DNA of 15,840 bases from Candidatus Latescibacterota bacterium (GTDB lineage: Bacteria > JAAXHH01 > JABIQT01): the NCBI GenBank assembly GCA_018667995.1, contig JABIQT010001099.1:1-15840 (forward strand). Reading direction: 5' to 3'. Below are positions 74 through 13,234 of the stretch, one piece after another; position 1 is the first letter of the stretch; every line of letters starts with the position of its first letter. The position numbers were made by a program, and so were the translations under genes. Under the pieces are notes generated by a model. It made no database searches. It was not told the origin of the DNA and was given only the letters and a program-made list of their open reading frames with translations.

Positions 74-1084
74 ATGGCATTGATGACGCTGGAACCGGGT
101 ATCAAAGTGGCTGGCCAAATGTCTCCAGAACCCACGGAGGCGGATCTAAAGTTCGCCCAGCAGATGGGTATCGAGTATGTCTGTCTCTGGACGGATGGCG
201 CACACGCAAACTACGACTACTTCATGCGAACCCGGGAGATCTACGAGAACGCAGGGATAAAAATATACGGGTTTGGCAATGGCGATGTTCACAATCAGGA
301 CGGCATTGTACTCAACCTTGCGAACCGAAATGAAAAAGTGGCCCAATATACACGATACATTCGTGACTTGGGTAAAGCGGGGATTCCGTACACAACATAT
401 GCTCACATGGGGAACGGCATCTGGAGCACAGATCGTGAAGCAACGCGAGGGGGTGCCAGCGCCCGTGGGTTTGACCTGTCAAATGCTACCGAGGGACACT
501 GGGGAAACAGGACCTTTCAGATGCCTCTGTCACACGGCCGCTCTTTCTCAGAGAAAGAAATCTGGGACAACTTCAGCTCCTTCATTAAAGAGGTAGCTCC
601 CGCAGCGGAAGATGCTGGAGTTCGCATCGGAATCCATCCCGATGATCCACCACAGCCTGAATTGGCTGGAATCCCTCGATGTATCTTTAGTAGTTTTGAA
701 GGGTACTCCCGCGCTATGGATATAGCCGATAGCCCCAACGTGGGTATATGCTTCTGTATCGGTTGCTGGCTGGAGGGGGGCTCGTTAATGGGGAAGGGCG
801 TCGAGGAATCTCTACGTTATTTCGGTGAGCAGGGCAAATTGTTCAAGATTCACTATAGGAATGTGGATAAGCCACTTCCCCATTTCGTGGAGACCTTTAT
901 CGATAACGGATATTTCGACATGTATCAGGCGACTCGGGTGCTCGAGGAGGTCCGTTTTGATGGTGTGATGATTCCTGATCACATCCCTACAATGGCAGAG
1001 GACGGTCGAATTGCTACCGCCTATTCCATCGCCTATATGAAGGCCCACGTGGATCGTGCCGTGGCGGAGGTGGCTGCTGCATGA
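74..1084 (+). CDS. UxuA-like sugar-acid dehydratase (mannonate dehydratase family TIM barrel)
   Basis: This 336-residue protein belongs to the mannonate dehydratase (UxuA) branch of the xylose-isomerase-like TIM barrels. These enzymes dehydrate a hexonate to a 2-keto-3-deoxy acid using a divalent metal in the cytosol. Family landmarks are visible: HPDDPP with His188, a Cys-rich GICFCIGC strand with Cys228 just before it ends, IHYRNV with His260, and the C-terminal PDH at 301-303. These match the usual His/Cys/His/Asp-His metal site. The start at 74 is chosen because AGGAGG at 62-67 is six bases upstream; the ATG at 68 abuts that site and cannot use it. It is shorter than E. coli UxuA (about 394 residues), so the true substrate may be another sugar acid. 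Its stop overlaps the next ATG (ATGA), showing translational coupling. Confidence 0.85.
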   Translation: MALMTLEPGIKVAGQMSPEPTEADLKFAQQMGIEYVCLWTDGAHANYDYFMRTREIYENAGIKIYGFGNGDVHNQDGIVLNLANRNEKVAQYTRYIRDLGKAGIPYTTYAHMGNGIWSTDREATRGGASARGFDLSNATEGHWGNRTFQMPLSHGRSFSEKEIWDNFSSFIKEVAPAAEDAGVRIGIHPDDPPQPELAGIPRCIFSSFEGYSRAMDIADSPNVGICFCIGCWLEGGSLMGKGVEESLRYFGEQGKLFKIHYRNVDKPLPHFVETFIDNGYFDMYQATRVLEEVRFDGVMIPDHIPTMAEDGRIATAYSIAYMKAHVDRAVAEVAAA

Positions 1085-1926
1085 AAATAGCCTACGGAAC
1101 ATATGCTATGCCCGAAACGCCATTGGAAGAAGTCATATCCTTACTCAGTAGTATTGGTTATGACGGCATTGAGGTGTGCATCAGTCCCCGTCATGTAGGA
1201 TCTATGCCAGCGGATGTGGATGCGTCCCGCCGCCGCAATCTACGTGCGCTTCTGGAAGGTCACGATCTTGGCATTCCAGCTCTATTCATGACCGGGCATA
1301 TGCTGAACGAAGATGATTCGGAGCATCAGTCCAACCTCGAACATACCAGACGTACGGTACAGTTCGCCCGCGATCTGGGTATGCAGGAAAACCCGGTCTT
1401 GTCTATGGGGATTGGTGGAAAGACTGATCGGTGGTTAGACGTGAGAGATCTGGCCGTCTCTCGATTCGCAGATTTTGCCGAGTTGGGGAAGGCCGAAGGG
1501 TTTATTATGGCCGGGGAGGCCCACTGCGGCGCGGCGGTGGACCGTTCCGAGCGTGCACTTTGGTTGGTCGACTCGGTCAACAGTCCGCACGCTCGGTTGC
1601 ATTTTGACATCGTTCATTTTTACCTCTCTGGGGAGAAGGAAGATGAGGCTGTTCATCGCCTCCTCCCCATAACGGCCCATACGCATATTACAGATGCCCG
1701 GAAGCACCCGGACAGATCGTTCGACCTGTTACTTCTGGGTGATGGAGACCTTGACGCTACGGCCTATGTCGCCGCTATGAATGAGGGTGGATGGAACAGC
1801 TACATTACGCTTGAAGTAAGCGCGCGGGTGTGGGGGCGTGACGACTATGACCCCGTGTCGGCCGCTCAGTACTCCTATGAATCGCTCAGTAGTGCATTTA
1901 CTGCTGCGGCAGTGCCAAGAGGTTGA
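1081..1926 (+). CDS. sugar phosphate isomerase/epimerase-like TIM barrel (AP endonuclease 2 family)
   Basis: This 281-residue cytosolic TIM-barrel protein is of the AP_endonuc_2 (IolE/IolI/epimerase) type, which isomerises, epimerises or dehydrates sugars or inositol derivatives at a metal site. The start MKIAYGTYAMPETPLEEVI and the strand at 23-33 (IGYDGIEV) are typical of the fold. The expected metal ligands appear in order: Glu146 in GEAH, Asp176 in HFDIVH, a His in AHTHITD (200-202), and Glu245 in TLEVS. The start ATG overlaps the stop of the preceding gene by four bases, so the two are probably co-translated. No regulatory element of its own is visible. The exact reaction cannot be read from sequence; a partner step to the upstream dehydratase is the simplest inference. 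Confidence 0.83.
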   Translation: MKIAYGTYAMPETPLEEVISLLSSIGYDGIEVCISPRHVGSMPADVDASRRRNLRALLEGHDLGIPALFMTGHMLNEDDSEHQSNLEHTRRTVQFARDLGMQENPVLSMGIGGKTDRWLDVRDLAVSRFADFAELGKAEGFIMAGEAHCGAAVDRSERALWLVDSVNSPHARLHFDIVHFYLSGEKEDEAVHRLLPITAHTHITDARKHPDRSFDLLLLGDGDLDATAYVAAMNEGGWNSYITLEVSARVWGRDDYDPVSAAQYSYESLSSAFTAAAVPRG

Positions 1927-1958
1927 GCGAACAGACGTATCTCAAACTGGGGAATGGT

Positions 1959-2975
1959 ATGTTAAGAGCTGGGATTATTGGGTGCGGTGGAATCACGGAG
2001 AGGCGGCATGCACCGGTGCTTGCCGGACTGTCAAATCTGGTTTCATTGGTAGCACTATCGGATGTTTCTGAAGACAGACTGGATCTGATAGGCGATCAGT
2101 ATGGCGTTTCGAAGGATCATCGTTATGTGGACTATGAGAGCATGCTTAAGAAGGAGTCCCTCGATTTCGTGCATATCTGTACTCCGCACCACCTTCACCA
2201 ACCTCAAGCGGTGGCCGCTATGGAGGCGGGCACTGACGTCCTTCTGGAAAAACCCATAGCGACAGACCTCGATGAAGCAGATTGTATAATGTCCGCGGCA
2301 ACCAGGACAGGCAGGCGGTTGACCGTCAGCCATAACCAGCTGTTTAGGCCTCTCCATCAGGCGGTTCTTGCGTGCCTGTCGTCCGGGGAGATAGGACGTA
2401 CGTTTCTGGTCCGGAGTGAGGGGCTCAGCCCCAAGCACGTGGTCGGCCGTGGTAAGGACCAGAATTGGCGCACCTCCCCCACAGCTGGTGGTGGTGGCCC
2501 CCTTATAGATAACGGGTATCACCAGATCTATTCTGCTGTCGACTTTCTGAAATCGCCCGCGAAACGCGTATTTGCTCGCGTAGGCAGATATGTACAGGAA
2601 ATCGATGTGGAGGACACGGCGCTGCTGCTTATTGAGCATGAAAATGATGCCACGACCTCCGTGCAAGTTGGATGGAGCGCTCATGCTGGTGGTGTCAGGG
2701 TTGAGGAGATTTACGGGACCGAAGGGCAAATTCGGATTGGAGGAGACGCGCCGGTATCGGTGTGGCGGAAGCACACCGGGGAGTGGGAAGCGCTGAGCAT
2801 AGAAGAGGAAGGTCATGACGAAGTGGGTTTTCCATCGCTGGCGCGGGCGTTTGTGAATGCGATATCCGGCAAGGAAGAGGTACCTGTCAGTGCGGGGGAC
2901 GCACGACATGTGCTGAGCATCATTCGCTCCGCATATGAGTCTGGTCGGACCGGACAACCCGTGGACGTGTTGTAG
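1959..2975 (+). CDS. Gfo/Idh/MocA family NAD(P)-dependent oxidoreductase
   Basis: This 338-residue oxidoreductase has an N-terminal Rossmann domain (GIIGCGGI at 5-12) and the C-terminal alpha/beta domain of the Gfo/Idh/MocA family. The signature Glu-Lys-Pro is at 97-99, with the catalytic lysine, and a GGGGPLIDNGYH block at 177-188 carries the Asp184/His188 pair normally near the substrate. Family members oxidise or reduce a ring or chain hydroxyl of sugars, sugar acids or inositols with NAD(P). The ATG at 1959 is preferred: GGGGA lies five bases before it and the Rossmann strand begins directly after it. A TTG at 1923 overlapping the previous stop would add 12 residues of no recognisable value. 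It sits three bases upstream of the DUF6807 gene, so it belongs to the same operon. It is clearly different from the two tandem paralogues further on. Confidence 0.9.
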   Translation: MLRAGIIGCGGITERRHAPVLAGLSNLVSLVALSDVSEDRLDLIGDQYGVSKDHRYVDYESMLKKESLDFVHICTPHHLHQPQAVAAMEAGTDVLLEKPIATDLDEADCIMSAATRTGRRLTVSHNQLFRPLHQAVLACLSSGEIGRTFLVRSEGLSPKHVVGRGKDQNWRTSPTAGGGGPLIDNGYHQIYSAVDFLKSPAKRVFARVGRYVQEIDVEDTALLLIEHENDATTSVQVGWSAHAGGVRVEEIYGTEGQIRIGGDAPVSVWRKHTGEWEALSIEEEGHDEVGFPSLARAFVNAISGKEEVPVSAGDARHVLSIIRSAYESGRTGQPVDVL

Positions 2976-2978
2976 ATC

Positions 2979-3899
2979 ATGTCGGACTTCAGCGTTCAGG
3001 CCGATAAGGTCGAGCTTCCGAGAGGAGCGAGTGCCGCGTCGCTCCGTCAGAATGTCAGATGGCGCGGACGCACGGTTCTTTCACTGACCCAGGGCCAGTA
3101 TCGTGCCTATTTACATCCCGTCTATACCCCAAAGGGAATTCCAGTCACGACAGAGTCTCCACCAGACCATCCACACCACAACGGAATCTGGCTTGCCGCC
3201 GATCGCGTCAATTGTGCACTGCCATTTTCCGTTGACGACTTCGAATACGCCACGTATAACTTTTACGTCAATGAGACATTCCAGGGACGATCGCCGGGAC
3301 GGATTCTCTCGAAGGGCATCAAGCAGGAAGTCGTAACCGGCGCTCATCTGCGACTCGTGCAGGATCTCGTCTGGGTGGGGCCACCCGAATGGGGCACCAC
3401 TGATGGCCGAACGGTCCTTCGCGAGACACGCACGCTGGATATTTTACCTGGCGAAAATGCCAATGTCTTCGATCTGCGGTCCCGGCTTACGGCTACAGAA
3501 TGGGATATCACTTTGGGCCCAACTCGCCATGCCTATTTTGGCGTCCGTACAGCAGAGCCTTTACAGGGGGGCCAGGGAGGCGAATTCTCTGACGCCCATG
3601 GACGTACAGGATCAGCAGACATTACGGGCTCTCTGGCACCGTGGATTGACTGCTCAGGTTGGGTGACTCGGGATCATTTCGCGGGTATAGCCATATTTCG
3701 GCCGCCTTCTGAAGCGCCTTACCCCTGGCAGGTGGCTGATTACGGAACCATCACCATCAATCCCCTGCGAGAGCAACACCGGAAATTGCGGGCCGGCGAG
3801 AGTTGCGAGTACACAATCAGGATTGTGGTGCATGACGGGGACGTACACTCAGCAAAGATCGGTGAGCGATACGAGTCCTATTGTCAGCACACCGAATAG
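2979..3899 (+). CDS. DUF6807 (PmoA-like annotation) family protein
   Basis: This 306-residue beta-rich protein matches the DUF6807 family, often labelled PmoA in databases although it is unrelated to particulate methane monooxygenase. Characteristic blocks are YLHPVYTPKG at 44-53 and DHPHHNGIW at 63-71, a His-rich motif that could bind metal, then RETRTLDI at 148-155 and a His-containing strand GPTRHAYFGVR at 180-190. The function of the family is not established; members usually sit beside Gfo/Idh/MocA genes in carbohydrate-degradation loci, as here, where the oxidoreductase ends three bases before it. There is no signal peptide or membrane segment, so it should be cytosolic. No clear ribosome binding site precedes the ATG, consistent with translational coupling to the upstream gene. 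Family assignment is fairly firm; any reaction is unknown. Confidence 0.75.
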   Translation: MSDFSVQADKVELPRGASAASLRQNVRWRGRTVLSLTQGQYRAYLHPVYTPKGIPVTTESPPDHPHHNGIWLAADRVNCALPFSVDDFEYATYNFYVNETFQGRSPGRILSKGIKQEVVTGAHLRLVQDLVWVGPPEWGTTDGRTVLRETRTLDILPGENANVFDLRSRLTATEWDITLGPTRHAYFGVRTAEPLQGGQGGEFSDAHGRTGSADITGSLAPWIDCSGWVTRDHFAGIAIFRPPSEAPYPWQVADYGTITINPLREQHRKLRAGESCEYTIRIVVHDGDVHSAKIGERYESYCQHTE

Positions 3900-3928
3900 T
3901 TCATTGAAACCTACAAGGAGCGGAAACT

Positions 3929-4705
3929 ATGAAGATCTTACGATACCGGGAGCATAACGAGATACACTATGGGGTTCTAGAAGATGACGGAACCATCAAC
4001 CAACTTGTTGGATCACCCTTCGAAGGGCTCGATACTGATGGGGTATTCACAAATATCAACAAGGTAACGGTACTGGCACCGGTTCCGCAGCCACGTCTTA
4101 TCGGTGTGGGGCTCAACTACGCCGCTCACGCCGCGGAAGGTGGCAAAGAGCCGCCGCCGATACCCATGCTGTTTATGCTGCCATGGACGGCAGTAATTGG
4201 ACAGGGCGACCAGGTCGTCTATCCTGTGCAGGGCCAGAACATAGAGTATGAGGGTGAACTTGTAGTTGTAATCGGTAAAGAGACCAAAGATGTCTCCGAG
4301 GCGGACGCGCTCGACCACGTGCTCGGATATACCTGCGGCAACGATATCAGCGAGCGTGTGATTCAACGACAGGAGATGAGCCAGGGCTGCATGCTCATGG
4401 GAAAGGGATTTGATACATTCAAACCCATGGGACCCTATATTGCTACAGATCTTGATCCGACCGATCTCGAATTAACCACCAGACTCAATGGAGAGATTCG
4501 ACAGCACACAAGCACATCTGATCTGATCTTTCCGGTAGCCAAGTTAATTGAATACATCTCCGACGCCATTACATTACTACCGGGCGACGTAATCTATACA
4601 GGTACGCCCGCTGGTGTAGGCCCTGTAGAACCGGGAGACAGTGTCGAGGTGGAAATTGGCGGCATCGGTATTCTCAAGAACACCATTGTGGCAGAAGAGG
4701 CATAG
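3929..4705 (+). CDS. fumarylacetoacetate hydrolase family protein
   Basis: This 258-residue enzyme of the FAH superfamily cleaves C-C bonds next to 1,3-diketones or decarboxylates oxaloacetate-like acids, using Mg or Mn. Visible motifs: GLNYAAHAAE at 61-70, the metal-binding EYEGEL with Glu108 and Glu110, GNDISER with Asp139, GKGFDTFKPMGP at 158-169, LNGEIRQ at 186-192, and the C-terminal PGDVIYTGTPAGVG block at 218-231. Length is typical of the short FAHD/2-hydroxyhepta-dienedioate group. AAGGAG at 3915-3920 lies eight bases before the ATG, one of the best ribosome sites here, suggesting independent strong initiation inside the operon. In sugar-acid pathways such as non-phosphorylated rhamnose breakdown, FAH members hydrolyse 2,4-diketo-3-deoxy acids. 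With a UxuA-like dehydratase and a dehydrogenase upstream, that role is a reasonable inference. Confidence 0.88.
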   Translation: MKILRYREHNEIHYGVLEDDGTINQLVGSPFEGLDTDGVFTNINKVTVLAPVPQPRLIGVGLNYAAHAAEGGKEPPPIPMLFMLPWTAVIGQGDQVVYPVQGQNIEYEGELVVVIGKETKDVSEADALDHVLGYTCGNDISERVIQRQEMSQGCMLMGKGFDTFKPMGPYIATDLDPTDLELTTRLNGEIRQHTSTSDLIFPVAKLIEYISDAITLLPGDVIYTGTPAGVGPVEPGDSVEVEIGGIGILKNTIVAEEA

Positions 4706-4709
4706 GGCT

Positions 4710-5498
4710 ATGCTCTCCGCGGATCAAGTGGCACACTATCAGAGTAATGGATACGTGAAAGTTGAAGGCCTGTTGTCGCCTTCTGAAGTCGATGAACTCA
4801 ATGGTGAAATGAATTGGCTGATCGATGAGTGGTGGGGCGAGGATAGTATTGGCTGGCGGGGACCGTGGCGGGAGGCCTATCTGTCGGAAGACGAACAGTA
4901 CGCTACCAAAGCTGTTTTCATCTCCAGCCCCCACATGTACTCTTCGGCTTGGAGCCGCATCATATTTCATGGGGAGCTGGTGTCGTCTCTTCAGTCGCTG
5001 ATAGGCCAGGATGTGCAATGGCATCATACCGTTCTACATGCGAAACCGCCGGAAATCGGCACACCGTTTCCCATGCATCAGGACTATCCTTTTTATCCGC
5101 ATGACGGGCCGAATTTCGTGGATTGCCTGATCCATCTCGACCCCACGCCGCCTGAAAGTGGATGTCTGCAGGTTGTGCCCGGGAGTCATCGTGATGGTCC
5201 CCTGGAACACGTAACTGGCGAACACACCCGGCCGTATTTGCCGACCGACATGTATCACCCTGACAAGGTGGACACAGTTAGTGTATCGGCAAAGGCTGGT
5301 GATGTGATTTTCTTCAGTTACTACACCATCCATTGGTCCGATGTGAACCGTACGGATTCTTGGCGTAAGTCAGTTCGAATCGGCTACCACACACCAGATA
5401 CCCGCCCTATCGGGAAAGCTGCCGACGAACCAAATAACAACATCATGGTGGGCGGTACCAAACAACATCGCCAGGAGCCGAAGCTCACGTATCGGTAA
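4710..5498 (+). CDS. phytanoyl-CoA dioxygenase (PhyH) family Fe(II)/2-oxoglutarate enzyme
   Basis: This 262-residue member of the PhyH family couples oxidative decarboxylation of 2-oxoglutarate to hydroxylation of a small substrate. The N-terminus SADQVAHYQSNGYVKVEGLLS is the family's usual opening. The iron triad is present: His123 and Asp125 in MHQDYPFY, and distal His208 in YTIHWSD, followed by Arg219 and Arg223 as candidates for the 2-oxoglutarate carboxylate. The block DPTPPESGCLQVVPGSHRDG at 144-163 is also diagnostic. An upstream in-frame extension to 4641 lies inside the FAH gene and adds only non-conserved residues, so the ATG at 4710 is chosen, four bases after the FAH stop and nine after AGAGG. 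Bacterial homologues act on ectoine, phosphonates and many natural products, so the substrate is open. Confidence 0.87.
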   Translation: MLSADQVAHYQSNGYVKVEGLLSPSEVDELNGEMNWLIDEWWGEDSIGWRGPWREAYLSEDEQYATKAVFISSPHMYSSAWSRIIFHGELVSSLQSLIGQDVQWHHTVLHAKPPEIGTPFPMHQDYPFYPHDGPNFVDCLIHLDPTPPESGCLQVVPGSHRDGPLEHVTGEHTRPYLPTDMYHPDKVDTVSVSAKAGDVIFFSYYTIHWSDVNRTDSWRKSVRIGYHTPDTRPIGKAADEPNNNIMVGGTKQHRQEPKLTYR

Positions 5499-5506
5499 AA
5501 TACAGA

Positions 5507-6352
5507 ATGCCTGACCGCAAAGATCCTCTGAACAACTCCTTCGATTCCATGCGCCTCATACCTTCGGGCGGTGCCCTGGGTGCCGAGATATCAGGCATCG
5601 ATCTTTCGTTGCCGCTCTCAGACGATATCAAAGACGGCATCCGAAAGGCCCTGCTTGACCATTGTGTCCTCTTTTTCCGAGGACAGGAATTATCCGATGA
5701 GAATCAGGTCCAGTTCACATCCTACTTCGGAAAACCAGTTCAGCACGTGCGAAAACAGAGAGAGCGCCGCGTAAAAGAGATATTCATTATCTCAAATCTA
5801 ACCCAGAATGGTGAACCTATTGGTGCACTGGGCAATGACGAGATCTCTTTTCATTCGGATCTGTCTTATATGCCCAAACCTGGAACCATATCGGCACTCT
5901 ATGCCGTGGAGATACCTGAGGTAGGTGGGGCCACCCAGTGGTGCAACTGCCAGGCGGCATATGAGGCGCTTGCTCCGTCTATGAAGGGGCGACTTCAGGG
6001 ATTGCGAGCGGTACACAGGCACTATGTAGAGGAGCAGAATCCAACGTATCTGGTGGACCATCCTGTTGTCATAAGGCATCCCGAGTCCGGTAAGAAGTCT
6101 CTGTATGTGGGACCGCACTTGACCAAACACATTGTAGGTATGAGCCCGGAAGATAGCGAGGAACTGCTGGGTGAGCTCTTTGCACACCAGACCAAACCTG
6201 AATTTCTCTGGACACATCAGTGGCAAGTAGGGGATCTCGTTATGTGGGATAACCGCCCAACCATGCATCGGCGAGAACCGTTTCCGGCAACAGAGCGTCG
6301 CATTATGAAGCGTACCCAGGTGTTCAATGATGAAGTCCCCGTCGATGGATAG
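5507..6352 (+). CDS. TauD/TfdA family Fe(II)/2-oxoglutarate dioxygenase
   Basis: This 281-residue dioxygenase of the TauD/TfdA family follows the PhyH gene by eight bases. It shows the family's opening ALGAEISGIDLS at 23-34 and VLFFRGQ at 54-60. The iron ligands are His116 and Asp118 in SFHSDLSY and distal His254 in WDNRPTMHRR, with ERRIMKRT at 263-270 supplying the 2-oxoglutarate arginine. Relatives hydroxylate carbons next to sulfonate, aryloxy, sulfate or amine groups, causing the product to fall apart. No strong ribosome site precedes the ATG at 5507; an internal ATG at 5549, at the family's usual beginning, is an alternative. The 3' end overlaps the following kinase gene by eight bases. 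The pairing of two unlike 2-oxoglutarate oxygenases suggests two sequential oxidations, an inference only. Confidence 0.87.
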   Translation: MPDRKDPLNNSFDSMRLIPSGGALGAEISGIDLSLPLSDDIKDGIRKALLDHCVLFFRGQELSDENQVQFTSYFGKPVQHVRKQRERRVKEIFIISNLTQNGEPIGALGNDEISFHSDLSYMPKPGTISALYAVEIPEVGGATQWCNCQAAYEALAPSMKGRLQGLRAVHRHYVEEQNPTYLVDHPVVIRHPESGKKSLYVGPHLTKHIVGMSPEDSEELLGELFAHQTKPEFLWTHQWQVGDLVMWDNRPTMHRREPFPATERRIMKRTQVFNDEVPVDG

Positions 6353-7301
6353 TGTCCTCCAACTACTTTTGACATTTCTGGACGTCAATGCTCCGACATC
6401 TGACTGTGAATTTGAGAACTGGCGGATCATACCTGTGGCTCAGGGCCGAAACAACAGGTTATACCGTGCCGTCAGTGATATCCACGATATTGCGGTGAAA
6501 TTCATGATCCGGGATGACCGGGGACGCGCACGGCGGGAATACCTCGCCCTTCAAGCGCTGCGAAGCGCGAGTCTGGCCATCGCGCCCGTTCCACTACTCT
6601 ACCAACCGGACACTTTCGCACTACCAGTCGTGGTCCAAGAATGGTGTGAAGGGTTCGTCAGTTCCGGGCCACCTGAAGATGACAACGAGTGGCACCTTCT
6701 TGTAGAGCACTATGCAGCTATTCATTCCGTTACGGAGGCCAGTAGCTGCGAACTTCTGTCGGACGCCATAGCCAATAAGGGCACGCTGCCATCGGCGATG
6801 GCGTACATCGATGGACTCATTCCACCAATCCCCATGAGCGCCCGACCTGCAGATCTCGACAGACTTTTGTATCGCGTCAAAGAATCCGTTTTGCCCGGGT
6901 GGAACCCACCACCCCGTAGTTTGTGCCGCGTCGATCCCAATCCGCTAAATCTGATTCGACTTCCTGCCAAGTGGAAATCTGTGGATTGGGAGTACGCAGG
7001 ATGAGGCGATCCCGCAGCAGATTTGGCAGAAGTGATTGCATTTCCGGAGTTCATTGGGGTAACGGAGGATTCTTGGAATGGGTTTATCGAATCGTATGCC
7101 GAACGGGTACAGGATCGACAGATCGCTAGCCGCGTCCGAAGGTATCGTATACTTGTCACGATGCAGTGGGTGCTGCGGTTCGCGCGAATCGTCGCCAGGG
7201 CAGACCGCAAAGACCGTATGTGGGAGGAGCCGGAAGGTTGGCAAGATCTCATGGTCTCCCGCTACGCACATTACCTGCACGGCATTGAGCAACTGATCTG
7301 A
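6345..7301 (+). pseudogene. choline-kinase/APH-like phosphotransferase, interrupted by in-frame TGA
   Basis: The full frame encodes 318 residues around one internal stop, TGA at 7002-7004 (codon 220). Both halves are in the same frame: the first ends VDWEYAG and the second resumes GDPAADLAEV. Family members of the LicA/aminoglycoside-phosphotransferase type read DWEYAGWGDP here, so the stop replaces a tryptophan codon by one G-to-A change. The N-terminal part has a kinase-like Lys52 in AVKFM, catalytic-loop Asp197 and Asn202 in CRVDPNPLN, and metal-binding Asp214 in DWE. The loop histidine expected two residues before Asp197 is Arg195. The C-terminal helical part (221-318) would be lost without readthrough. 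A recent pseudogene, a sequencing error or readthrough are all possible. Start at 6345 overlaps the dioxygenase stop; 6327 is an alternative. It would phosphorylate a small hydroxylated or amino substrate. Confidence 0.8.
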
Positions 7302-7322
7302 TCGTCAATGGAAAGGCAATTC

Positions 7323-8597
7323 ATGATTCACCCGCTCGCACCGAACCATATCGCTTTGTATTCCTCTCCAGATCACGATAGGATCCATTGTTACAGTCCG
7401 GGACTTACGCGCTGTGCCAACGGCCGGCTGATAGCCACTATTGACCTGGGTGGTTCGGGCGTCACCCAAATGCCCGGTCCGAAGTATCACCGAGGGGAAC
7501 GGGATTGGGCCTGGCAGGGAAAGGTATATTCCTCAGACGATCATGGAGCTACCTGGACGTTTCGAGCTGACTTTCCCTTCATGCATGCCAGGCCCTTCGT
7601 CGCAGGAAATGCCATCTATGTACTCGGACACGCTGGTGACCTGATGATCATCCGATCTGATGACAACGGAGCTACCTGGTCTGAACCCGTGGCACTCACC
7701 GAAGGACAGTTCTGGCACCAGGCGCCATGCAACGTGCATCACGCCAACGGAAACGTGTATCTGGTTATGGAGCGTCGCATTTCGTTTGATATCAAAACCT
7801 GGTATGTGGGCGAGTTGGCGCCGGTACTAATGCGCGGATCCACAGATCGGGATCTACGATACCGCGAGCATTGGACATTCGCCTCTGAGTTGTCGTTTCG
7901 TGAGGTCTTGCCGGGGGTGGAATCCATGCCGGATACAGATTTCTTCGGTGTGCCTTTCTTCGATGCCCCATATCCCCAAGGCGCCGTTCAGTCTCCCGGA
8001 CGGACTTGCGCGCCTATGGGCTGGCTGGAAAGCAATGTGGTTCAAATCGTAAACAAGGATCACCTCTGGTACGATCCTGACGGAAGGACATTCCATCTCT
8101 GGATGCGAGCCCACACGGGAGGAACCGGCTATGCCGCCATAGCCAAAGTTGTGGAACGAGATGACGATACCATGGCCACCATGTTGGAAACGGCTCCATC
8201 TGGCAAGACCATGTTATATGTGCCCTGCCCGGGCGGGCAGATGAAATTCCATGTGTTGTATGACCACGTGACATCCATGTACTGGCTATTGAGCACACAG
8301 GCTACTGACAGTATGACCCGATCGGACCGCCTGCCAGATGATCGATACAATCTGCCCAACAACGAACGCCATCGGCTTCAGCTTCATTTCTCGACCAACA
8401 TGATAGACTGGTGCTTTGCCGGACTGATCGTCCGTAGTCCCTCGCCGAAACAGGCACGGCACTACGCGAGCATGATCATAGACGGCGATGACTTGCACAT
8501 TCTGAGTCGCTCGGGTGATGAGCGCTCATTCGACGCCCATGACGGAAACCTGATTACATTTCACACCGTTCCCGATTTTCGAGGACTGGTCTATTGA
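7323..8597 (+). CDS. BNR/Asp-box beta-propeller protein (sialidase-like)
   Basis: This 424-residue protein has two Asp-box repeats (SxDxGxTW): SSDDHGATW at 70-78 and RSDDNGATW at 111-119, the hallmark of six-bladed sialidase-type propellers. Further Asp-rich and Trp-rich strands follow, for example HLWYDPDGRTFHLWMR around 247-262, which is compatible with more blades that have degenerate boxes. Such folds occur in exo-sialidases, other glycosidases and carbohydrate-binding proteins; the arginine triad that would prove sialidase activity cannot be assigned confidently. There is no signal peptide or membrane helix, unusual for a secreted glycosidase. The ATG at 7323 is preferred to one at 7308 because GGAAAGG lies six bases before it. 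It follows the interrupted kinase by 21 bases and precedes the esterase by 44, so it belongs to the operon. Confidence 0.75.
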   Translation: MIHPLAPNHIALYSSPDHDRIHCYSPGLTRCANGRLIATIDLGGSGVTQMPGPKYHRGERDWAWQGKVYSSDDHGATWTFRADFPFMHARPFVAGNAIYVLGHAGDLMIIRSDDNGATWSEPVALTEGQFWHQAPCNVHHANGNVYLVMERRISFDIKTWYVGELAPVLMRGSTDRDLRYREHWTFASELSFREVLPGVESMPDTDFFGVPFFDAPYPQGAVQSPGRTCAPMGWLESNVVQIVNKDHLWYDPDGRTFHLWMRAHTGGTGYAAIAKVVERDDDTMATMLETAPSGKTMLYVPCPGGQMKFHVLYDHVTSMYWLLSTQATDSMTRSDRLPDDRYNLPNNERHRLQLHFSTNMIDWCFAGLIVRSPSPKQARHYASMIIDGDDLHILSRSGDERSFDAHDGNLITFHTVPDFRGLVY

Positions 8598-8641
8598 GAC
8601 CAACTGGGCTTTTCCACATCGACCTGAGAGAGTAAGTGCCT

Positions 8642-9673
8642 ATGTACGATTCCAAGAGACATTTCAACACCACGTTCCACGCATTCACGCCAGAGTTTCG
8701 GTTCGCGGCCGAGGACGATGCCGCTTTCGAGCGGTGGCAGCAGGCATTTCGACCACGGCTCCGACAGGTACTCGGTCTGGACAATCTTGAGAACGACCTC
8801 AAAAACCACGTGCCGCATGCCGAGTTGAACGAAACGGAAGACATGGGGGATTACACACGGGAGTCGTGGCATATCTGGACGGAACCGACAGTGCCATTGC
8901 CTTTTTATCTCCTGCGTCCAAAGTCGCTTAACGGAAAAGTACCTATGGTACTGATTCCGCATGGCCACAACCATCCGCACATTTATGTCGGTATTGCGCA
9001 CAACGAAGCGGAAGCGAAACATATTGAAGAGGGCGAACGGGACATCGGTGTACAGGCCGTGCGCGAGGGTTACATTGCCATTGCGCCTTGCACACGAGCT
9101 TTCGGCGAGACCCGTACTGCAAAAGCCATTGCCGAGAACAAGGTGCACTCGTGCCGTGATCAACTCGTCCATGGCCTGCTGGCCGGGAGAACACCGATCG
9201 GCGAGCGTGTGTGGGATATGGGGTGTCTCATCGATTGGGCCACAGCCAGTCAGGGCATCGACCCGACCCGTATTGCGATAACTGGAAATTCGGGCGGAGG
9301 AACAGTCTCAGTATTCGCCGCGGCTTGCGACACCAGGATTGCCGTCTCCATGCCTGGATGCTATTTCTGCACCTTTGAAGGCAGCATTGGATCCATCAAC
9401 CATTGCGAGTGCAATTATGTGCCCAATCTTCTGAGATTGGGTGAAATGTACGATGTGGCTGGCCTGATTGCTCCGCGCCCGTTTACCGCAATCGCTGGAA
9501 GGACCGACCCGATTTTTCCCATTGAGCACGTAAAGTTGGCCTTTGAGAAACTACGGAGTATATATGAGGTGGCCGGGGTGCCTGATGATTGCGCACTCCA
9601 TGTTGGAGAGGGAGGCCACCGATACTACAAAGACGGCGCATGGCCCTTTCTGAGGACTTACTTCGCGATTTGA
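8642..9673 (+). CDS. alpha/beta-hydrolase, acetyl xylan esterase/dienelactone hydrolase-like
   Basis: This 343-residue alpha/beta-hydrolase resembles the large bacterial group that includes Abhydrolase_7 and acetyl-xylan-esterase-like proteins. The nucleophile elbow is GNSGG with Ser217, reached after the common DPTRIAITG strand. The acid is probably Asp289 in AGRTDPIFP and the base His326 in GEGGHRYY. An oxyanion-type loop VLIPHGHNHPH lies at 103-113. These enzymes hydrolyse esters, often acyl groups on sugars. No signal peptide is seen, so an intracellular substrate is likely, such as an imported acylated oligosaccharide. The ATG at 8642 follows a GAGAG-rich stretch at about 8626-8632; a GTG at 8636 is an alternative. 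It is the last gene of the run: a hairpin and a new promoter follow. Confidence 0.8.
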   Translation: MYDSKRHFNTTFHAFTPEFRFAAEDDAAFERWQQAFRPRLRQVLGLDNLENDLKNHVPHAELNETEDMGDYTRESWHIWTEPTVPLPFYLLRPKSLNGKVPMVLIPHGHNHPHIYVGIAHNEAEAKHIEEGERDIGVQAVREGYIAIAPCTRAFGETRTAKAIAENKVHSCRDQLVHGLLAGRTPIGERVWDMGCLIDWATASQGIDPTRIAITGNSGGGTVSVFAAACDTRIAVSMPGCYFCTFEGSIGSINHCECNYVPNLLRLGEMYDVAGLIAPRPFTAIAGRTDPIFPIEHVKLAFEKLRSIYEVAGVPDDCALHVGEGGHRYYKDGAWPFLRTYFAI

Positions 9674-9837: not shown

Positions 9838-10734
9838 TTGGCTGTTATAGATGATTTTCTTACTCATTTGACGGTGGAACGTGGGCTATCGGCGAACAGT
9901 TACGATGCCTATCAGCGTGATCTTAAGGGATATCTGACTTCGCTCCGTCGTCGGAAGACAACCCCGGTGAAAGCTGGCGCGGCCGATATCCGGGCCTTTG
10001 TGGCTTCCATGCGTCGTCGCGGTCTGGCACCGTCCAGCATAGCCCGGCATCTGTCGGCAGTACGTATGTTTCACCGATTCCTATTGAGTGAGGGTATTAC
10101 CGCATCAGACCCTACCGAACATGTAGCAGCGCCAAAGAAGCCACGCAGGTTGCCGGAAGTGTTGAATCGTGAGGAAATTGATCTGTTGATGGAGCAGCCT
10201 GATCACACGACGCAGTTGGGACTTCGCGACAGAGCGATTCTTGAATTTCTATATGCGACAGGCCTCCGCGCAGCGGAACTGCTCACATTCCAGCGGACAG
10301 ATCTCATGGAGGATCTGGGTCTCGCGCGCGTATTCGGTAAAGGCTCCAAAGAAAGACTGGTGCCTGTGGGACGCCCGGCTTTGCGGCTCATTCGGAAGTA
10401 CCTTGAAGACGTGCGGCCCATGCTGGCGAATAGTGGAAGCGGGGAGACTCTTTTTCTGAATTCCCGGGGCAAGGCTCTTTCCCGCATGGGGCTCTGGAAA
10501 ATTCTCAAAACACACGTTGAACTGGCGGGTATCGAAAAGAAGGTCAGCCCCCACACCTTACGGCACTCCTTCGCCACTCATCTCCTCGAAGGAGGCGCCG
10601 ATCTACGTGCTGTGCAGGAAATGCTGGGACATGTTGATATAGCGACCACGCAGATCTATACACATGTAGACCGTGAGTACCTCAAAGAAGTTCATCGACA
10701 GTATCATCCTCGGGGTGGCAAACGTGCCAAGTAG
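9838..10734 (+). CDS. xerD: tyrosine recombinase XerD
   Basis: This 298-residue protein matches the full length of chromosome-dimer-resolving Xer recombinases. The N-terminal core-binding domain (1-100) has the typical opening DDFLTHLTVERGLSANS and the block LSAVRMFHRFLL at 72-83. The catalytic domain contains all expected residues: Arg144 in ATGLRAAEL, Lys168 in FGKGSKERL, His239 and Arg242 in HTLRHSFATH, His265 in LGHVDIATTQ, and nucleophile Tyr274 in IYTHV. The C-terminus LKEVHRQYHPRG favours XerD over XerC or phage integrases. The start codon is TTG, five bases after AGGAA at 9828-9832. It acts in the cytosol with a XerC partner at dif to resolve dimers. It stands alone with its own promoter between two metabolic groups; no att-like repeats flank it, so it is probably housekeeping. 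Confidence 0.9.
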   Translation: MAVIDDFLTHLTVERGLSANSYDAYQRDLKGYLTSLRRRKTTPVKAGAADIRAFVASMRRRGLAPSSIARHLSAVRMFHRFLLSEGITASDPTEHVAAPKKPRRLPEVLNREEIDLLMEQPDHTTQLGLRDRAILEFLYATGLRAAELLTFQRTDLMEDLGLARVFGKGSKERLVPVGRPALRLIRKYLEDVRPMLANSGSGETLFLNSRGKALSRMGLWKILKTHVELAGIEKKVSPHTLRHSFATHLLEGGADLRAVQEMLGHVDIATTQIYTHVDREYLKEVHRQYHPRGGKRAK

Positions 10735-11030: not shown

Positions 11031-12053
11031 ATGGACAGGAAATTGAAGGTTGGAATCATAGGGCTCGGTTTGGGACGTCATCACCTTGCAGGGTACGCCT
11101 CCAATGATCAGGTTGAGATAATCGGTGTCGCGGATCTCGATGACAACCGACTCCATGAGGCCCAGTCCGAGTACGAAATCCCAGAAACATGTCATGCCTA
11201 TGAGGATCTTCTGACGCTCGGGCCGGATCTGGTCAGCGTGGCGTTGCCGAATTTCCTGCACGCTCCGGCAACTGTAGCGGCACTTGACGCGGGGGTACAT
11301 GTCCTTTGCGAGAAGCCCATGGCCGTCAGCGTAGCCGAAGCTCAGAAGATGGTAGACGCGGCCAAACGGAACGACCGGTACCTGATGATAGCTCTCAACA
11401 ATAGATTTAGGGCCGAATCACAGATCCTCAAGAAACTGATCGATCAGGGCGAACTCGGAGAAATCTATTACGCGAAGACCGGATGGCTACGTCGCCGCGG
11501 CATTCCCGGCGCCGGAGGGTGGTTTACGACCAAAGCCAAATCCGGTGGCGGACCACTGATCGATCTCGGAGTACATATGATTGACCTGACGCGATGGCTG
11601 ATGGGCAACCCCAAACCGGTAACGGTGCAGGGATCGGTATACTCAAAGTTTGCTCACACCGTCGAGGACGGGCATTACGATGTAGAAGATCTTGCCGTCG
11701 GATTTATTAGACTTGAAGGTGGTGCGACGCTCATCGCTGAGGCGAGTTGGGCGACGAACGTACCCCAGGAATCCTCCTATGTAAAGCTGATGGGTACAAA
11801 AGGAGGTGCTGAGATCACCGGTGACAAGTTGACCGTTTTCACTGAGATGCACGATGAGTTGGTGGATATTACACCTATCTTTCATGGCCATTCCTGGGGT
11901 GATTGTATAGCATCCGAAATTGCGCACCTCGTGACATGTATTCAAGAGGGTAAAGAGCCCATGTCAACCGGTGAACAAGGGCTTGAGATGATGAAAATCC
12001 TTGAGGGTATATATCAGAGTGCCGAACAGGGATCGACTATCGAGATTGGTTGA
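11031..12053 (+). CDS. Gfo/Idh/MocA family oxidoreductase (tandem copy 1)
   Basis: This 340-residue NAD(P)-dependent oxidoreductase has the Rossmann motif GIIGLGLGRHH at 8-18, Glu-Lys-Pro at 94-96 and the substrate-side SGGGPLIDLGVH at 171-182 with Asp178 and His182. A segment shared with the next gene, GWLRRRGIPG at 151-160 followed by WLMGNPKPVTVQG at 189-201, marks both as one subfamily, distinct from the oxidoreductase at 1959-2975. GGAGG at 11022-11026 lies four bases before the ATG, an excellent ribosome site. It is preceded by a long leader and followed by a 128-base gap, so it is probably transcribed apart from the first operon. The substrate is likely a sugar, inositol or derivative; the sequence does not say which. 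Confidence 0.9.
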   Translation: MDRKLKVGIIGLGLGRHHLAGYASNDQVEIIGVADLDDNRLHEAQSEYEIPETCHAYEDLLTLGPDLVSVALPNFLHAPATVAALDAGVHVLCEKPMAVSVAEAQKMVDAAKRNDRYLMIALNNRFRAESQILKKLIDQGELGEIYYAKTGWLRRRGIPGAGGWFTTKAKSGGGPLIDLGVHMIDLTRWLMGNPKPVTVQGSVYSKFAHTVEDGHYDVEDLAVGFIRLEGGATLIAEASWATNVPQESSYVKLMGTKGGAEITGDKLTVFTEMHDELVDITPIFHGHSWGDCIASEIAHLVTCIQEGKEPMSTGEQGLEMMKILEGIYQSAEQGSTIEIG

Positions 12054-12181: not shown

Positions 12182-13234
12182 ATGGCTGGGAAACTGAAGG
12201 TTGGTATTGTAGGCGTTGGTGGCATCGCGGGAACGCATCTGCCGGGTTGGGCAGCATCGGACGACGCAGAACTCGTTGCCGGAAGTGATGTTAATGAAAA
12301 CGTGTTGCAGTCCTGGGGCGAAAGCAACGGGATTAGTATGCTAGTGGCGGATCCCGCTGAACTGTTCAGCAACCAGGACATAGATATCATCGATATCTGT
12401 ACGCCTAACATGTACCATGCCCCATTAGCCATAGCGGCACTTGCTGCCGGAAAGCACGTCATCTGCGAGAAACCGCTTGCTCCCACACCCGGGGCCATAC
12501 GTGACATGATTGCGGCCAGAGATGCTTCGGGCAAAACGCTCATGACCGCACAGCATTTTCGGTTTGAAGGTTCGTCTCAGGCATTGAAGAGAGAGATCGA
12601 TGCCGGAGCACTCGGAGATGTATATCATGCCCGAGGATGGATGCTACGGAGGGCCGCTGCGCCCACGACGCCAGGATTCGTTCTGAAAGAGCACAGCGGA
12701 GGAGGTCCCTGCATCGATATCGGCGTACATATTCTGGATTTGACACTCTGGATGATGGGCAATCCAAAGCCGGTCGCGGTGAGCGGAGTGGCGCGTAACA
12801 CACTTGCCCGAAAGGACGGTGCGTTCAGTGTATGGGGCGGTGCAATTCCCAAAGAAATGGACGTGGCGGAGATGGCTGCCGGTTTCATTCGATTTGATAA
12901 CGGTGCGACGTTGGTTCTGGAGGTGAGTTGGCTCCTCCACCATGACACGCAAGGTGAAGATATGCAGATGTGGCTGTACGGAACCGATGGCGGAAGTCAC
13001 TGGCCCACCTGTGAGATCCTCAAGACCAATTACGAAACCAAGCAGCATTACAACACTTTGCTGAAGGTTACAGGTAATCAGCTTGAGCCTCACGCCCAGG
13101 AATGTGTGGAATTCGCACGGGCAATCGCCGCCGGAGCACCCTCACCTGTACCAGCGGAACAGTCGCTACAGGTTTTGACAATACTGGATGGGATCTACCG
13201 TAGTCAAGAGGAGGGCAGGGAGGTCACTCTCTAG
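12182..13234 (+). CDS. Gfo/Idh/MocA family oxidoreductase (tandem copy 2)
   Basis: This 350-residue protein is a paralogue of the preceding gene. It has a Rossmann glycine motif GIVGVGGIAGTH at 8-19, Glu-Lys-Pro at 96-98, GWMLRR at 152-157, and HSGGGPCIDIGVH at 171-183 with Asp179 and His183; the block WMMGNPKPVAVSG at 190-202 is nearly that of its neighbour. It differs by an insertion around 209-226 (ARKDGAFSVWGGAIPKEM) and by a Cys in place of Leu before the catalytic-side Ile. AGGAAAGGA at 12164-12172 supplies the ribosome site. It ends 28 bases before the convergent lipoprotein gene. A duplication followed by divergence for a related substrate or the opposite redox step is the likely history. 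Confidence 0.9.
   Translation: MAGKLKVGIVGVGGIAGTHLPGWAASDDAELVAGSDVNENVLQSWGESNGISMLVADPAELFSNQDIDIIDICTPNMYHAPLAIAALAAGKHVICEKPLAPTPGAIRDMIAARDASGKTLMTAQHFRFEGSSQALKREIDAGALGDVYHARGWMLRRAAAPTTPGFVLKEHSGGGPCIDIGVHILDLTLWMMGNPKPVAVSGVARNTLARKDGAFSVWGGAIPKEMDVAEMAAGFIRFDNGATLVLEVSWLLHHDTQGEDMQMWLYGTDGGSHWPTCEILKTNYETKQHYNTLLKVTGNQLEPHAQECVEFARAIAAGAPSPVPAEQSLQVLTILDGIYRSQEEGREVTL

Follow-up and report, generated by a model that had tools for sequence, protein, structure and literature searches.

Route III, the established non-phosphorylated pathway for L-rhamnose, L-fucose and pentoses, combines an acid-sugar dehydratase, a dehydrogenase and a C-C hydrolase of the FAH family, whose HxxE dyad (His83/Glu86) has been assigned to the hydrolysis of 2,4-dioxo acids (PMC6336799). 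A different chemistry is found in glycoside-degrading operons that encode a Gfo oxidoreductase and two sugar-isomerase-like proteins (PMC10628242), where the Mn site and the His base of the keto-glycoside eliminases have been described (PMC8563793, PMC10628242). Finally, PHYHD1-type PhyH proteins, one of them from Poribacteria, remove the O-methyl group from the ribose of free nucleosides (PMC12709175). Here, we analyse an operon of ten genes on a 15,840-nucleotide stretch of DNA from Candidatus Latescibacterota bacterium (hereafter “the window”), whose products include a UxuA-like dehydratase, a sugar-isomerase-like barrel of the AP_endonuc_2 type (AP2), a Gfo/Idh/MocA oxidoreductase (Gfo), an FAH-family hydrolase, two Fe/2-oxoglutarate oxygenases (PhyH and TauD) and an esterase. 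We propose that it descends from an ancestral catabolic operon located before the recombinase gene xerC, lost piecemeal in most relatives, and that it acts on a substituted sugar acid or glycoside, a proposal that we give an even chance of being right as a whole.

The locus was compared across a phylum sample of 16 genomes, all belonging to one order. Most of the operon is kept in two of the 16, a single operon gene is found at the same spot in 13 others, and xerC lies directly 3’ of the operon or of its remnant in 15. In G013, a genome of another family, the genes for the UxuA-like protein (82%), AP2 (65%), Gfo, FAH (71%), PhyH (77%), TauD (67%) and the esterase (68%) precede xerC (74%) in the same order and on the same strand. 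The Gfo gene of G013 is a remnant encoding 136 residues (L039:5691-6260), with short AT-rich repeats on both sides; these repeats may have mediated the loss of the 3’ half of Gfo together with the DUF6807 gene. Twelve genomes, all of one genus, have xerC immediately after the UxuA-like gene (80-83%), and none of the other operon genes is recognised in the interval; in G011, FAH (73%) alone precedes xerC. Upstream of the remnant, most of the twelve genomes and G011 carry a divergent second FAH gene, about 31-36% similar to that of the operon (L040:2723-3568, L079:3584-4429), which helps, with xerC, to anchor the locus. The simplest reading of these arrangements is that one ancestral operon stood before xerC and was eroded independently in different lineages; separate insertions would be less simple because different genomes keep different members at one place.

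Judged by gene order, the conserved core is made up of seven genes: UxuA-like, AP2, Gfo, FAH, PhyH, TauD and esterase. An earlier reading of the window made without database searches (the sequence-only reading) had treated all ten families as belonging together, with an order expected to recur in relatives. The order does recur in G013 for the seven core genes, but the genes for the DUF6807 protein, the kinase and the propeller are absent from the locus there, and therefore there is no fixed ten-gene unit. These three are either lineage-specific additions or have been lost elsewhere. Their GC content (0.54-0.56, against 0.52-0.55) does not single them out as recent imports.

Between the window and G013, synonymous sites are saturated (proportion of synonymous differences, pS, 0.75-0.82), and the proportion of nonsynonymous differences (pN) is 0.11 for the UxuA-like gene, 0.16-0.22 for the other five intact core genes and 0.19 for xerC. 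Among species keeping just the UxuA-like gene, its ratio of nonsynonymous to synonymous substitution rates (dN/dS) is about 0.06 (0.05-0.1). Because pN is low where synonymous sites are saturated, and dN/dS is low, the six intact core genes, including the lone UxuA-like survivor, are under purifying selection. Gene order, families, active-site residues, purifying selection and the ancestral locus are all read from sequence.

Relatives of several operon genes are also found away from the locus. Orthologues or close relatives of the esterase gene lie about 50 kb from it in several genomes of the twelve-genome genus, orthologues or close relatives of TauD and PhyH persist at unrelated sites, and propeller relatives (about 35% identity) occur at another locus. 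In G002 (L080:6736-14245), a propeller relative shares its neighbourhood with a further UxuA-like gene and with PhyH, a combination that recurs at a second locus. It could be argued that no pathway exists at all, and that a genome well stocked with these families merely happens to have brought independent metabolic genes together. The PhyH query returns 61-119 first-look candidates per genome in G000-G015, PhyH, TauD and esterase orthologues occur singly elsewhere, and three of the ten genes are not in G013. However, two families share seven genes in one identical order, 13 more genomes hold remnants at this locus, and reading frames overlap, which makes such an explanation barely credible.

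The kinase gene, of the APH type, is interrupted in the window. An in-frame TGA is present at 7002-7004, directly after the motif DWEYAG, and the frame reopens to 7301. As assembled, the kinase is broken and lacks its C-terminal third; the TGA stems from a nonsense mutation or, alternatively, from a fault in the assembly. Recoding of the TGA was considered and is not plausible because TGA ends several neighbouring genes as an ordinary stop. Matches to the kinase elsewhere in the phylum are weak only. The kinase had been read from the sequence as a clue to the substrate, a use that is weakened or unsupported here.

We then turned to active-site residues and curated family models. In the UxuA-like protein, H190, C230, H262 and D304 (counted from the ATG at 68) have identical counterparts in the alignment with 3ban, at positions that, from ManD structures, we take to be those of the metal ligands. 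The arginine of the RPDH motif is replaced by Ile (IPDH in the window and in relatives), and the protein falls below both UxuA cut-offs (75 against 199.55 bits for TIGR00695 and 106 against 191 bits for NF003027). FAH, in which Pfam recognises an Rv2993c-like N-terminus next to the FAA_hydrolase domain, contains an H67/E70 dyad and the ExE...D set E108/E110/D139, and the dyad is kept in G013 and G011. FAH thus retains the metal set and HxxE of C-C hydrolases, and the UxuA-like protein its four metal ligands; the sequence-only view of a cytosolic catabolic operon of carbohydrate type is also supported.

The same view had assigned dehydratase, dehydrogenase and FAH to a non-phosphorylated route ending in C-C hydrolysis. 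In a route resembling Route III, the UxuA-like enzyme would make a 2-keto-3-deoxy acid, Gfo would oxidise it at C4 and FAH would split the resulting diketo acid, so that pyruvate and a hydroxy acid are formed; the remaining genes would only prepare the sugar. Dehydratase, dehydrogenase and an FAH with an HxxE dyad are all present, and an established pathway follows the same logic (PMC6336799). However, the known 4-dehydrogenases are short-chain dehydrogenases/reductases (SDR; PMC6336799), none of which is found among the identified window genes, so that Gfo need not be the 2-keto-3-deoxy acid dehydrogenase. Against the model for 2,4-didehydro-3-deoxy-L-rhamnonate hydrolase (NF053535), FAH scores 172.7 bits, failing a cut-off of 500, and the scheme leaves no role for AP2, whose gene runs into that of Gfo in the window and is found close to Gfo genes in other places. 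Moreover, G013 retains FAH and the UxuA-like gene beside a truncated Gfo; Gfo may therefore be replaceable by a paralogue, and the exact trio is weakened. In this strict form, we regard the route as unlikely.

Gfo beside a sugar-isomerase-like barrel is a signature of keto-glycoside chemistry, an alternative that the sequence-only reading left aside. Here, Gfo would oxidise a glycoside at C3, AP2 would carry out beta-elimination, the UxuA-like protein would serve as a hydratase or second eliminase, and FAH would take the aglycone or its oxidation product. The residues E146-x-H148, D176, H202 and E245 of AP2 are conserved in 11 of 11 aligned relatives and correspond, by motif rather than by structural superposition, to the metal and base set of CGD and OGE, that is, to the Mn site and His base of the keto-glycoside eliminases. 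The UxuA-like protein matches AP_endonuc_2 in Pfam as well, glycoside-degrading operons of comparable make-up are known, as mentioned above, and at most of the loci examined elsewhere, AP2-type genes (36-38% identity) are accompanied by a nearby Gfo gene; in G331, a PhyH gene sits between the two. Other observations fit less well. The closest structural matches of AP2, among those listed, are isomerases and epimerases: with a predicted model (predicted local distance difference test score, pLDDT, 89.9), the fold search returned Art22 (Z 29.7), AsbF (Z 27.1) and AtHYD (Z 25.8). Relatives of isomerase, of dehydratase and of hydratase type all fall within Z 25-30, and the structure did not decide among them. 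Keto-glycoside eliminases are not among the best 50 structural matches listed, which is no evidence against them. In addition, AP2 has H202-x-T where C-deglycosidases have H-x-K, no gene for a small C-deglycosidase beta-subunit is found among the operon genes, and FAH is left unexplained. We thus doubt that the operon is a keto-glycoside operon of this kind.

FAH also raises the possibility of a non-sugar substrate. The best FAH models and structures are HpaG/HpcE-like, the best structural match of TauD is an (R)-phenoxypropionate dioxygenase, and full-length FAH relatives at 50-58% are found on rhizobial and burkholderial plasmids, where two annotated rhizobial neighbourhoods (54-55% relatives) show no evident sugar pathway and no substrate. 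FAH might then act on an aromatic or other non-sugar acid, as in the degradation of 4-hydroxyphenylacetate, next to phenoxyalkanoate-type dioxygenases. Yet five of the ten genes are linked to carbohydrates by family or fold (UxuA, AP2, Gfo, DUF6807 and the acetyl-xylan-type esterase), FAH scores 201.8 bits against HpaG and fails its cut-off of 276.4, and no ring-cleaving enzyme is found among the operon genes. We consider such a substrate highly improbable.

As regards substituents, both oxygenases have the residues expected of their families: H123, D125 and H208 in PhyH, where HxD...H and an Arg are present, and the Fe and 2-oxoglutarate residues H116, D118, H254, R265 and R269 in TauD. From the families present, substituents such as an amine, a methyl, a sulfonate or a phosphonate group had been suggested earlier, a suggestion that is weakened or unsupported for the amine, the phosphonate and a taurine-type sulfonate. 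PhyH scores 63.6 bits against the methylphosphonate hydroxylase model NF052437 (cut-off 500), and TauD scores 188.4 bits against the taurine dioxygenase equivalog (cut-off 313), both failing. Of the three residues that bind the amino group of taurine, Y73, D94 and N95 (PMC3675115), D94 is kept in TauD, the aligned Y73 and N95 positions being occupied by Lys and Glu. The PROSITE-like S2 pattern of the alkylsulfodioxygenase AtsK, [DEN]-x-L-[WRV]-[AV]-x-H-[TSGDN]-[NF] (PMC5066984), is not matched either, the window TauD reading QGLRAVHRH. At the AtsK sulfate-binding positions His81/Val111/Arg279, TauD has H80, Leu119 and R269; His80 was not accepted as proving that the substrate is a sulfonate or a sulfate, this residue being present in 83% of the aligned superfamily. 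In the esterase, S219, D291 and H328 are conserved in G013.

An AlphaFold model of the DUF6807 protein (pLDDT 80) shows a supersandwich of the galactose-mutarotase-like type, for which the fold search returned a galactosaminidase domain (Z 17.4; root-mean-square deviation 2.9 over 215 residues) and GalM (Z 15.2). The predicted fold, which many sugar-active proteins have, fits a sugar ligand, a shared fold alone being no proof of function. A scan of genome contigs for DUF6807 returned two distant Chitinophagales loci only, with no other operon gene recognised adjacent, and the searched literature contained one passing mention, with no function given.

From these families and residues, we infer the reactions, their order and the substrate of the operon as follows. 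The substrate, a sugar acid or a glycoside, would be inside the cytosol from the start, where acyl and oxidisable substituents (for example O-methyl, another ether, or a sulfo group) would be taken off by the esterase and the two Fe/2-oxoglutarate oxygenases. Gfo would oxidise the sugar, and AP2 would isomerise or beta-eliminate the keto-sugar. The UxuA-like enzyme would dehydrate an aldonate to a 2-keto-3-deoxy acid, and FAH would split a 2,4-dioxo acid hydrolytically, yielding pyruvate together with a small acid. The active-site motifs are in keeping with this scheme. More specifically, the operon could encode a new catabolic route for a sugar acid that bears an O-substituent and is methylated, sulfated or carboxyalkylated. 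In such a route, the oxygenases and esterase would unmask the sugar, Gfo and AP2 would cleave or isomerise the keto-sugar, the UxuA-like enzyme and a non-canonical FAH would release pyruvate, and DUF6807 would be a new sugar-binding or mutarotase-like enzyme; we put this forward tentatively, as a possibility well short of even.

Several points weigh against the proposed operon and its role. The seven-gene order is conserved in one other genome only, where Gfo is truncated, which means that the operon either can do without Gfo or has one of its many paralogues take its place. In the twelve-genome genus, TauD and esterase relatives survive far from the xerC locus, and therefore these enzymes can work outside the operon. 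The AP2 motif is common to isomerases and dehydratases of the same fold, none of the operon proteins tested reaches a curated NCBIfam cut-off for function, and the ten genes include no aldose dehydrogenase, lactonase, regulator or transporter.

Gene neighbourhoods in other genomes were also inspected. In haloarchaea, short UxuA relatives (about 33-35%) have glucuronate isomerase or alpha-glucuronidase as a neighbour, and UxuA relatives in Microvirga and G070 are found in clusters with RraA-like proteins, carboxylate/sugar transporters and mandelate-racemase-type dehydratases. In G054, from another phylum, a 73% orthologue of the UxuA-like gene adjoins two SGSH_C-type sulfatases (L161:5458-12294), a hint of sulfated sugars. 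Haloarchaea carry esterase relatives (about 43%) in clusters that also encode pectate lyase, GH28 and dihydrodipicolinate-synthase-like aldolases. In searches of plasmids with UxuA-like, esterase, PhyH, TauD, AP2 and FAH, no organism was seen with the full set; the nearest was Halocatena marina, on a plasmid of which UxuA-like, FAH, Gfo and a split or decayed esterase (L081:13706-14330) lie within 14 kb. Taken as they stand, these contexts point to sugar acids and name none. A literature search found no paper joining mannonate dehydratase, FAH, gene cluster and dioxygenase.

The window, the features of which are collected in Table 1, spans the whole of contig C444; the assembly is fragmented (6.06 Mb, 1165 contigs).

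Table 1. Coordinates and family assignments of the operon genes and of xerC in the window
Feature	Coordinates	Strand	Group	Remarks
UxuA-like TIM-barrel dehydratase	74..1084	+	core	PF03786, 128.7 bits; 82% orthologues before xerC
AP2, sugar-isomerase-like TIM barrel (AP_endonuc_2)	1081..1926	+	core	PF01261; predicted model and fold search
Gfo/Idh/MocA oxidoreductase	1923..2975	+	core	PF01408, PF22725, PF02894; truncated in G013
DUF6807 protein, galactose-mutarotase-like fold	2979..3899	+	accessory	PF14100, 174.3 bits; fold search
FAH-family hydrolase	3929..4705	+	core	PF01557, 220.1 bits; 71-73% orthologues
PhyH-type Fe/2-oxoglutarate oxygenase	4710..5498	+	core	PF05721; 77% in G013
TauD-type Fe/2-oxoglutarate oxygenase	5507..6352	+	core	PF02668
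APH/choline-kinase-like gene, broken	6327..7301	+	accessory	PF01636, 41.8 bits when read through
BNR-like propeller protein	7308..8597	+	accessory	BNR_2, 28.3 bits, below cut-off 31.4
Abhydrolase_7 esterase without evident signal peptide	8636..9673	+	core	PF12715, 50.6 bits; 65-74% orthologues
xerC-type recombinase	9838..10734	+		PF00589; syntenic anchor of the locus, outside the pathway

The ten genes run on the + strand from 68/74 to 9673 with spacings of -26 to +38 bp, AP2 and Gfo (genes 2 and 3) overlapping by 4 bp. Nine of the ten families are above the Pfam cut-off (PF14100 passes a gathering cut-off of 27), the propeller match being weak. For the UxuA-like gene, a start at 74 is favoured over 68, with AGGAGG six bases upstream and orthologues beginning MALM. 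Open-reading-frame coordinates, Pfam and the AGGAGG site thus confirm the same-strand packing, the named families and the start at 74 given by the sequence-only reading. The 5’ end of the operon may extend beyond the contig edge, because just 67 bp precede gene 1 in this fragmented assembly. Within positions 1-67, a frame open from the contig edge reads INIDVGSVLREYNL before a stop at 43-45 and may be the end of a gene further upstream; the same-strand upstream neighbour in G013, 29 bp off, is a beta-ketoacyl-synthase-like gene. On the 3’ side, xerC is followed by two Gfo/Idh/MocA genes arranged head to tail (11031-12053 and 12182-13234), an opposite-strand TPR protein and a Rieske/cytochrome b pair. 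An Rfam search of the window gave no matches, and promoter and terminator scans gave chance level only.

The operon is real and old; its decay can be followed with unusual clarity, and its probable role is the breakdown of an uncommon sugar acid. That decay is visible at one chromosomal place, where one genus is left with a single highly conserved enzyme and another genome with a different one, and it makes the remaining role of the lone UxuA-like enzyme directly testable. If the proposed pathway is true, it would give DUF6807 a substrate context and would account for one or more of the uses to which the large expansions of PhyH dioxygenases in this phylum are put, the PhyH counts of G000-G015 resembling the abundance described for Poribacteria (PMC3909097).

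How, then, does the operon compare with known systems? The hexuronate pathway shares a UxuA-like barrel with all four metal ligands, and short haloarchaeal relatives lie by uxaC or alpha-glucuronidase; the operon differs in the sub-threshold UxuA scores and the Arg to Ile change of RPDH, and the window has no uxaC, uxuB or 2-keto-3-deoxygluconate kinase or aldolase. The PHYHD1-type demethylases (PMC12709175) would offer a precedent for sugar O-demethylation, the operon PhyH being compared by family and Fe/2-oxoglutarate residues only, and the operon has no nucleoside gene. With the PUE dgp cluster and the Agrobacterium GlycDH/OGE/HYD operon (PMC8563793, PMC10628242), it shares an adjacent Gfo and sugar-isomerase-like barrel, the same metal and base residues by motif and a second TIM barrel (UxuA-like) nearby; it differs in having no DgpB-like subunit and in combining one AP_endonuc_2-type with one UxuA-like protein, and FAH and oxygenases are not described in those operons. 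Compared with Route III (PMC6336799), it lacks an aldose dehydrogenase and a lactonase, has a UxuA-like dehydratase and a Gfo/Idh/MocA protein rather than an SDR, and adds two Fe/2-oxoglutarate oxygenases and an esterase; like Route III, it brings together an acid-sugar dehydratase, a dehydrogenase and an FAH-family C-C hydrolase with HxxE, with pyruvate as the expected product. In function, the operon is plausibly an analogue of Route III or of the keto-glycoside operons rather than an established member of either.

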